This document shows, piece by piece, positions 62,194 through 63,843 of a stretch of DNA of 64,000 bases. The DNA is from Halopiger djelfimassiliensis. GTDB lineage: Archaea; Halobacteriota; Halobacteria; Halobacteriales; Natrialbaceae. The stretch covers positions 197,789 through 261,788 of the forward strand of contig NZ_HG315684.1 of the NCBI RefSeq assembly GCF_000455365.1, written 5' to 3'. The position numbers and the translations under genes were made by a program. Under the pieces are notes generated by a model. It saw only the letters and a program-made list of their open reading frames with translations. It did no database searches and had not been told where the DNA came from. How positions within the stretch are numbered: the stretch's first letter is position 1; each line of letters begins with the position of its first letter.

Positions 62194-62670
62194 CCGGTTC
62201 CGTCCCGAACCGGTAGCACAATCCCGTTTCGTGGAGTCACGAAACGCCGTTCGCCAGCCCTCGCTCGAGCGATCAGAGCCGCTCGAGACGAATCGCTCTA
62301 TAGCGATCGGTCTCCTACCTCGGAAAAGGGACGGAGATAGCTCCGGTGAGAGGCAGAATAGATGATAGCAACGAAAGGGAAAGAATGGATGCTTGAACAG
62401 ATGGCCTGCTGTTCTTCGCCGTGTGTTTCGACACAGTAACCGAGTGAACCGCCTCGGGGTCAAGTCGTTCGAGAATCTTTGATTCTCGTGATCACGGAAA
62501 TCTCCGATTTCCGGACGACCCCGAGGCACTCGGCCTGTTCCGCCTGTAGATCACCGGCTACATGCCGCTCCTCCGCCCAGTCGGTCGAATAACTCAGTGA
62601 CTGGGTATAGCGGTGTTCGGGAGCAGAATCACTCACCAGTATGCGGGTGAGGAACCGATCGATGAGGAAA
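62194..62670. other. Intergenic region with three-arm palindromic element
   Basis: About 480 nt between the small zinc protein and tRNA-Trp. The main structure is the nested palindrome at 62451-62527. The stretch 62300-62400 is rather AT-rich, with no gene supported on either strand. Confidence 0.6.
62451..62527. repeat. Three-arm palindromic element (outer stem and two inner hairpins)
   Basis: The 77-nt element is almost fully self-complementary. The outer 11-bp stem GCCTCGGGGTC (62451-62461) pairs with GACCCCGAGGC (62517-62527). Inside are two perfect 8-bp hairpins: CGAGAATC-TTT-GATTCTCG (62470-62488) and CGGAAATC-TCC-GATTTCCG (62495-62513), separated by TGATCA. Three 3-nt loops or junctions and the TGATCA palindrome give a three-way junction. 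It could be a mini transposable element, a terminator, or an RNA structure. Similar arms are known to me as repeated palindromes in haloarchaeal genomes, but only one copy is in the window. Confidence 0.8.
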
Positions 62671-62845
62671 TGGGGTCGGAGGGATTTGAACCCCCGATCG
62701 ACTGATATCTCCGGTGCGCCTCGGAACTCCAGAGGGTCATCACACGGACACTGATCAGGTGCCCGATCAGTATATCAGTCTGGAGTGTCGTCCCGGGCGC
62801 GGTGCCTCTGGAGTCAGTCGCCATGCCTGGCTTGGCCACGACCCC
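62671..62845 (-). tRNA. tRNA-Trp (anticodon CCA) with intron
   Basis: Minus-strand gene. Exon 1 (62845-62808, 38 nt) is GGGGTCG with D-arm GCCA...TGGC and ACTGA-CTCCAG; exon 2 (62706-62671, 36 nt) is A-TCAGT-CGATC-GGGGG-TTCAAAT-CCCTC-CGACCCC-A. The acceptor stem pairs over 7 bp, the anticodon stem ACTGA/TCAGT over 5 bp, and the loop CTCCAGA carries the anticodon CCA. The intron (101 nt, 62807-62707) sits between positions 37 and 38, the usual archaeal site with a bulge-helix-bulge. A discriminator A follows the acceptor stem; CCA is not encoded. The halophile tRNA-Trp intron is known to be conserved in its class. Confidence 0.96.
62707..62807 (-). ncRNA. tRNA-Trp intron with box C/D guide elements for C34 and U39
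   Basis: In the 101-nt intron, box C (GTGATGA, 62743-62737), a guide CTCTGGAGTT and a box D-like CCGA (62724-62721) can be placed. The fifth guide base upstream of that box pairs with C34 of the anticodon. A second guide, GACTGATAT, lies upstream of box D' CTGA (62770-62767), and its fifth base from the box pairs with U39; it spans the intron-exon junction. This is the known Haloferax-type arrangement guiding 2'-O-methylation of C34 and U39. The first-half box C is degenerate here, so the reading of the second pair is stronger. Confidence 0.85.
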
Positions 62846-62898: not shown

Positions 62899-63843
62899 TC
62901 ACAGCCACGGGGCCCGGCCATCGGTCTCGGTCGTGTCGTCGCCGGGATAGGTGCTGTCGTCGTCGGCACCCTCCTCGGGTTCTGAGGCGACCCAGCCACC
63001 GACGACGGGCCTCGAGCCGGTCTCTCCGCCGTCGGTCAGCGTTCCGGCCGGCGGTTCGCGGCCCTCCGTCGGCGCTCCATCGTCGGGGCTCGAGTCGCGT
63101 TCGTCGGTCGTCTGGGGACCGATCGGCGGATCGATCGCGAACACGCCGGCGACGATCAACGCGGCGAGGGGTGCCTGGCCGAACGCGTCGGTCAACAGCG
63201 AAAGCGGCAGGAGTCCGAGCGCGACGGCGCTCCCGAAGCGGAACCGATCGAGGTTCATGTACTCCCGCAGGTACGGGCCGCTGAGGGCGACGGCGAGCGC
63301 AAACGCGACGCCGACGACCGCGGCCAGCGTGGCGTTTGCGACCAGCCCCGGATCGTTCATGAGCACGAACGTGGCACCGCTTGGATCGATGCTCGCGATC
63401 AGTCCGAGGCTGATGATCACGCCCGGACTCGGCAGATACTCGCCGATCGTCGCGCTTGCGGTTTTGGCCGCGATCGCGAGGATGACGACCGCCGCGAACC
63501 GCTCGAAGATCTGCTCCTGGAGCAGACTGCCGATCGCCGGCGCTAACACCGCCTGGACGACCGCGAGCAGTATCAGCGGGACCCCGACGAGCAGGACGAC
63601 TTTCGCCTGCTCGCGGGGCGTTCCGCTCATTTCCGCGAGTATTACGGCAACGGTGGCGCTGCCGCCGAAGATCAGCAATCCGGTCTGGATCGCACTCAGG
63701 GGATCGTCGAGTCCGCCCGCGAGGATCAACACGGGGAAGATGCCATCGACCAGTGGCAGCATCATCACCAGCGCTAGGAGTCTGGTGTCACCACCGACGA
63801 GACGCTCGAGGCGGAAGGCAACCGGGTGTCGGGAGGTACTCAT
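62899..63843 (-). CDS. DUF5794 family integral membrane protein
   Basis: The 314-residue protein starts MSTSRHPVAFRLERLVGGDTRLLALVMMLPLVDGIFPVLILAGG and has about seven transmembrane helices (about residues 20-240), with conserved SGTPREQAKVVLLVGVPLILLAVVQAVLAPAIGSLL and ASIDPSGATFVLMNDPGLVANATLAAVVGVAFALAVALSGPYLREYM. The last 75 residues are a hydrophilic acidic tail ending in TDGRAPWL. It is the long form of DUF5794 proteins restricted to haloarchaea; function unknown. Its stop is about 55 nt from the 5' end of the tRNA-Trp gene on the same strand, so the two may be transcribed together or from adjacent promoters. Confidence 0.85.
   Translation of the reverse strand: MSTSRHPVAFRLERLVGGDTRLLALVMMLPLVDGIFPVLILAGGLDDPLSAIQTGLLIFGGSATVAVILAEMSGTPREQAKVVLLVGVPLILLAVVQAVLAPAIGSLLQEQIFERFAAVVILAIAAKTASATIGEYLPSPGVIISLGLIASIDPSGATFVLMNDPGLVANATLAAVVGVAFALAVALSGPYLREYMNLDRFRFGSAVALGLLPLSLLTDAFGQAPLAALIVAGVFAIDPPIGPQTTDERDSSPDDGAPTEGREPPAGTLTDGGETGSRPVVGGWVASEPEEGADDDSTYPGDDTTETDGRAPWL

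Follow-up and report, generated by a model that had tools for sequence, protein, structure and literature searches.

The hairpin cluster found close to the tRNA-Trp gene of Halopiger djelfimassiliensis very probably consists of two nested non-autonomous mobile repeats, a PATE (palindrome-associated transposable element) and an SMR (Small Mobile Repeat) inserted into it. Both kinds of repeat were already described in 2011; the small one proves to occur in nearly all the haloarchaea tested. The window, as the whole 64-kb stretch of DNA analysed is called here, hosts the features listed below, with the evidence for each in brackets.

62444-62545, minus strand: composite element, 102 bp (alignment with copies of left-end, right-end and solo type; two congeners in which the site of an equivalent composite copy is unoccupied)
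62546-62550, minus strand: putative left target TCTAC, a presumed TnpA cleavage/insertion signal and candidate TnpB TAM (aligned copies; empty sites)
62519-62545, minus strand: left-end (LE) part of the PATE, ending in the palindrome arm CCTCGGGG (62519-62526) (same as the LE of L030 and L219)
62465-62518, minus strand: SMR, 54 bp, TCGTC-hairpin-TGATCA-hairpin-AACGA, between G and C (empty palindromes; match to the covariance model R1)
62495-62513, minus strand: SMR hairpin 1, CGGAAATC-GGA-GATTTCCG (covarying stem)
62470-62488, minus strand: SMR hairpin 2, CGAGAATC-AAA-GATTCTCG (covarying stem)
62444-62464, minus strand: right-end (RE) part of the PATE, with the loop CTTGA, the arm CCCCGAGG and the terminal CGGTTCAC (same as the RE of L030, L032 and L219)
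62671-62845, minus strand: tRNA-Trp with intron, given for context only (Rfam RF00005, 46.2 bits)

On the minus strand the composite is ordered 5'-AGGCGGAACAGGCCGAGTG-CCTCGGGG-(54-bp insert)-CTTGA-CCCCGAGG-CGGTTCAC-3'. The structural parts described in the first-pass annotation are found exactly where it placed them: an 11-bp outer stem without mismatches (GCCTCGGGGTC, 62451-62461, and GACCCCGAGGC, 62517-62527), two perfect hairpins with 8-bp stems and 3-nt loops at 62470-62488 and 62495-62513, and TGATCA between these at 62489-62494. The rarity of such an arrangement in random DNA is borne out by shuffle tests of RNA folding, DNA folding and hairpin pairs. The RNA fold of the region has an energy of -51.8 kcal/mol (z = -5.65), matched by none of 200 shuffles, and the DNA fold has z = -5.7; adjacent perfect 8-bp/3-nt hairpins occur as one pair in the 64-kb window, against none in 30 block-shuffled windows. 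What had been drawn as a three-arm structure is a two-hairpin inverted unit lying inside a separate palindrome. The related arms that had been noticed are the two halves of this inverted unit and not arms of one structure. Stem boundaries differ from the biological ones, which lie at 62444-62545 for the outer element and at 62465-62518 for the inner one. The annotation would have been abandoned for a unique element devoid of pairing conservation; the element is multi-copy and its pairing is strongly conserved. Among the three roles offered for it, that of a non-autonomous mobile repeat is the correct one, and the interpretation as a whole is partly supported.

The outer element is identified as what remains of an IS200/IS605 TnpB transposon reduced to its termini (PATE type), the two ends being fused at one palindrome. 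Deprived of its insert it measures 48 bp, and is too short to encode a transposase. Its ends (AGGCGG... and ...GGTTCAC) are not terminal inverted repeats; a near-terminal palindrome, CCTCGGGG/CCCCGAGG, is present. The ends match the LE and the RE of tnpB elements found at locus L030 and, in the same genome as the window, at L219. Some copies of the repeat occur as pairs flanking tnpB: at L030 a copy at 1102-1182 and a second one at 2531-2617 enclose the gene for an intact TnpB of 421 aa (1255-2520, Pfam PF07282). Aligned copies are of left-end, right-end or solo type, and in the solo copies, that of the window included, the left end of the first type is joined to the right end of the second. 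Aligned copies have TCTAC or TTCAC in front of their left ends.

The H. djelfimassiliensis genome hosts a tnpB-bearing relative at G000:C2:717300-719800, the left half of which is partly masked as N. It encodes an intact TnpB of 425 aa, and its palindromes are uninterrupted (LE CCTCGGGGCTTGACCCCGAGG, RE CCTCGGGGTCAATCCCCGAGG). An empty PATE of 52 bp is found in the same genome. At G000:C1:527792-527865 (L205), a PATE carries an SMR collapsed to a single hairpin, likely a deletion derivative.

Clean insertion of the PATE is documented by a homologous composite copy (L009, genome G035) rather than directly by the window copy: the corresponding site is unoccupied in two congeners (G062 and G207), and the empty sites keep TCTAC and show no duplication. 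For the insertions in the window itself no empty site was accepted among 60 relatives, because the region downstream of tRNA-Trp is not conserved. A match at L049 spans the insertion junction; no tRNA gene was found at this locus, and the match was taken as fortuitous and not as an empty site.

Uninterrupted palindromes read CCTCGGGG-CTTGA-CCCCGAGG, and 54 extra bases separate CCTCGGGG from CTTGA in the window. This inner element is recognised as a two-hairpin repeat of 54 bp, to all appearances cleanly inserted at G^C without target duplication. The unit has also been found in tnpA genes, in tnpB genes and at other sites, some of which are available in both filled and empty versions. After rejoining, 58 of 58 bases are identical at the left-end palindrome (L032 filled, L137 empty) and 60 of 60 at a tnpB site (L191 filled, L032 empty), and identity is 95% at a tnpA site (L119 and L135). 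Insertion at G^C is found in 105 of 109 distinct SMR copies, and the length is 54 bp in 90 of the 109. Targets are of about 24 kinds in this set, mostly IS605 ends, tnpA and tnpB, proportions that describe the sample and not the genomes, because the loci had been selected for resemblance to the window or for the best model scores. Once rejoined, 48 of the 109 targets have a stem of 7 bp or more around the insertion, against 2.3% of random G^C positions; this pattern reflects in part inheritance with the host element and not repeated targeting, because most of the palindrome sites are in a single transposon family. Stem-bearing targets include three unrelated palindromes (CCTCGGGG, TGGCTGTG and TGCGGGAG), and a palindrome is not obvious at roughly half of all target sites.

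Sequences lying outside the stems (TCGT, GTGAT, AACNA) are conserved across the class. The inverted ends of the SMR consist of TCGT/ACGA alone (4-6 bp), and are mismatched in the AACCA subtype. Forms of 105-107 bp, with four hairpins, have been identified at L029, L034, L019/L036 and L037, a second two-hairpin module being nested centrally at GTGA^TGACGAG. As these have the same ends and occupy the same palindrome site, the window unit is a short form. SMRs are also found in several genera at a cggatactg^cctc site (L059:285-338, L075:192-245, L127 and L029:1026-1079). At these four loci the target first resembled a conserved gene; it adjoins a GGTTCGGAATCCGCTCCGTTCCGACC-like repeat, and probably represents another, unnamed repeat family.

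A single ancient insertion of the SMR in an ancestral IS605 palindrome, followed by spread exclusively as a passenger of IS605 elements and PATEs, would account for the fact that most palindrome copies share one G^CTTGA site and one orientation, and that the tnpA site is common to six genomes. This history is unlikely, given the number of target kinds and the existence of empty versions of the same sites. It also fits poorly with genome G090, where two PATE hosts that have diverged carry an identical 54-mer, and unrelated targets carry near-identical units.

Repeats of this type are widely dispersed. A 101-nt query had matches at E <= 1 in all of the 41 genomes searched, many of them strong (down to 1e-28), and one genome has more than 20 copies among the matches listed. 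In the genome of the window one other copy is near-complete (84%), and several more are partial. Matches were found in 31 plasmid records, all from haloarchaea among the matches listed; phage records gave no match to the repeat. An exact 17-mer scan of GTDB genomes detected mainly haloarchaea, plus scattered single bacterial matches that we take to be chance. The R1 model, which matches the window SMR at E = 7.2e-18, identified SMRs in 95 of the 98 genomes sampled throughout the class, and in 44 of the 45 genera. A single genome has as many as 56 matches, palindromic units often being counted on both strands.

Base pairing is a constant trait of the repeat. In an alignment of 30 copies 94.4% of the stem cells pair, against 27-46% for slid structures, and 82 two-sided changes are observed versus 2 one-sided changes to a standard pair. 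There is almost no G-U, and this is not a selection artefact, because G-U counted as a valid pair when the aligned copies were selected. In the set of 109 copies, filtered for at most one mismatch per stem, 16 of 1757 stem pairs are non-Watson-Crick (2 G-T and 14 other mismatches). G-U pairs are tolerated by an RNA helix, and not by a DNA hairpin or by one kept perfect through intrastrand repair. Of the loops, 86 of 102 and 90 of 104 are triplets made entirely of purines or entirely of pyrimidines, and reverse-complement pairs occur; an orthologous tnpA insertion has the same stems in two genomes, with the loop GAA in one and TTC in the other. We infer that loops of this kind result from flipping of the hairpin tip. 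Covariation restricted to Watson-Crick pairs and strand-flipping loops together argue for a DNA hairpin rather than an RNA.

The structured-RNA role contemplated in the first-pass annotation is disfavoured by this exclusively Watson-Crick covariation. The SMR could extend the scaffold of an omegaRNA, or the PATE could give rise to a solo guide RNA serving TnpB in trans and taking its guide from the downstream flank. It is established that the omegaRNA includes the right end of TnpB elements, and 10 omegaRNAs have been reported in Halobacterium (PMC12558985). The PATE retains such a right end, and SMR-filled right ends are found on intact tnpB genes (L030 and L032). An RNA role is nonetheless quite improbable, since the stems change by double substitutions with almost no G-U intermediates, SMRs are inserted in both orientations inside tnpA and tnpB, and Rfam, at the gathering as at a relaxed threshold, matches the tRNA alone and has no family for the element. 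Perfect stems, and homopurine or homopyrimidine loops appearing as reverse complements, are also what local creation of hairpin pairs by replication template switching would leave, with no mobile element involved. Such an origin is hardly credible in view of the exact 54-bp insertions and of the conserved motifs outside the stems; template switching may maintain the stems of the SMR, and does not create its copies.

In six genomes SMRs are located in tnpA just 5' of the HUH motif. The IS200-type tnpA gene at L113 (genome G130) hosts one in frame: the reading frame is open, the product has 18 extra residues, and Pfam Y1_Tnp aligns full-length in spite of the insertion. At L028 (genome G015) two SMR units are found within an open tnpA frame of 176 codons. 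At another site, in tnpB, the SMR introduces a stop. The open frames thus indicate that the reading frame of a host gene is not always broken by the SMR, which fits poorly with the defensive role suggested for SMRs in 2011. Rickettsia palindromic elements are short palindromic repeats able to sit in frame in protein genes. By this general description the 18-codon SMR of tnpA resembles them, the lineages being unrelated. Two near-identical ISs of the H. djelfimassiliensis genome have a degenerate SMR beside or inside a 345-codon tnpB frame (G000:C1:895544-895597 and G000:C2:827465-827518).

The element had been placed upstream of tRNA-Trp. The gene is on the minus strand (62845-62671), and the element is therefore located downstream, at a distance of about 125 bp. 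A transcription terminator or processing element could be expected in this position, beyond the tRNA 3' end and on the same strand. Among 30 loci with a near-identical tRNA-Trp, however, the element is found downstream only in the window's own and in none of the other 29, copies elsewhere have no link to tRNA, and a terminator or processing role is extremely improbable. A tRNA-Trp copy on a Natrinema plasmid similarly has no element downstream. A conserved tRNA-Trp function is refuted by the 29 relatives, and the location is therefore incidental. The long intron of tRNA-Trp is nearly invariant with the gene (98-100% in the best-matching relatives); haloarchaeal tRNA-Trp introns are C/D-box guide RNAs (PMC12558985). 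The gene on the tRNA-Trp side (62899-63843, minus strand) encodes a DUF5794 protein (Pfam PF19107).

Composition, boundaries, filled and empty sites, dispersal across the class, the G^C rule and the preference for IS605 parts can be read directly from the sequences compared. As to movement, both layers most likely travel as single-stranded DNA by means of HUH transposases acting in trans, a mode extended to the SMR by reasoning. The PATE would depend for any movement on a Y1 (HUH) TnpA supplied in trans and acting at its hairpin end, and plausibly inserted adjoining TCTAC, about 125 bp downstream of tRNA-Trp. The SMR, two short-tagged hairpins in inverted orientation, would then have inserted without duplication at G^C, the stem-loop junction of the PATE palindrome. 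It may move as single-stranded DNA folded into hairpins, its preferred target plausibly being a palindrome loop exposed on the lagging-strand template. The enzyme would be an HUH transposase working in trans on the single-stranded hairpins, probably a resident TnpA of the IS200 type, a proposal to which we assign somewhat less than an even chance. The genome of the window encodes one intact Y1 TnpA (137 aa), and has 14 tnpB genes above cut-off. REPs are moved in bacteria by RAYTs. A RAYT was rejected as the SMR mover, because the NF047646 cut-off was reached in none of 41 haloarchaeal genomes. Sequence ties no enzyme to the SMR, and an autonomous version, combining its ends with a gene, was not seen. 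A broader scheme is possible, and put forward tentatively: the SMR would be a class-wide parasite of transposon ends, a minimal 54-bp single-stranded DNA element with insertion at G^C in exposed loops of extruded hairpins. It would borrow the IS200-type transposase at whose ends it resides, and grow from 54 to about 107 bp by nesting of a like module, its perfect stems being kept by intrastrand repair and hairpin flipping. In such a scheme the SMRs of intact tnpA and tnpB genes would be tolerated cargo rather than the inactivating defence suggested in 2011.

PATEs were defined in Haloquadratum (PMC3119063) as IS605 remnants that keep only the termini, have palindromes close to these and cause no target duplication. 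The outer element shares with them the lack of terminal inverted repeats, the near-terminal palindrome, the fused IS605 ends, a 52-bp terminal-only form and the absence of duplication; it differs in size, with 48 bp plus the 54 bp inserted, and belongs to a family whose palindromes are CCTCGGGG/CCCCGAGG. The inner repeat matches, at half length, the SMR-A elements of Haloquadratum walsbyi (HqIRS42/43/55), to which it is likened by their published description. These are about 110 bp long, target PATE/IS605 palindromes, and move by a mechanism termed 'enigmatic' (PMC3119063). Like the SMR described here, they are transposase-free, cause no target duplication and lie inside near-terminal PATE/IS605 palindromes; their prominent inverted ends may have a counterpart in the short TCGT/ACGA. 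SMR-A elements are nearly uniform per type, whereas copies of the window type, with 54 bp and two hairpins, diverge with compensatory changes. The Haloquadratum plasmid PL47 and half of PL100 gave no R1 match. REPINs and BIMEs, which are inverted REP doublets (PMC3116915), are similarly made of two short-tagged inverted hairpins, dispersed and non-coding, and CGTC-tagged REPs are without a dedicated transposase (PMC3733652), the CGTC tag being present also in the window SMR. The family described here differs from REPINs and BIMEs in being archaeal, in its strong preference for transposon palindromes, and in having no RAYT above cut-off in the 41 genomes.

The 2011 description left the movement of SMRs 'enigmatic' and tied them to one species. 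For a short form, boundaries are now exact, insertion follows a G^C rule, a structural signature is defined and presence across the class is near-universal, and the moving enzyme thereby becomes testable in a genetic model. A search model is also provided for annotating the SMR copies that break transposon ends and genes in haloarchaea.
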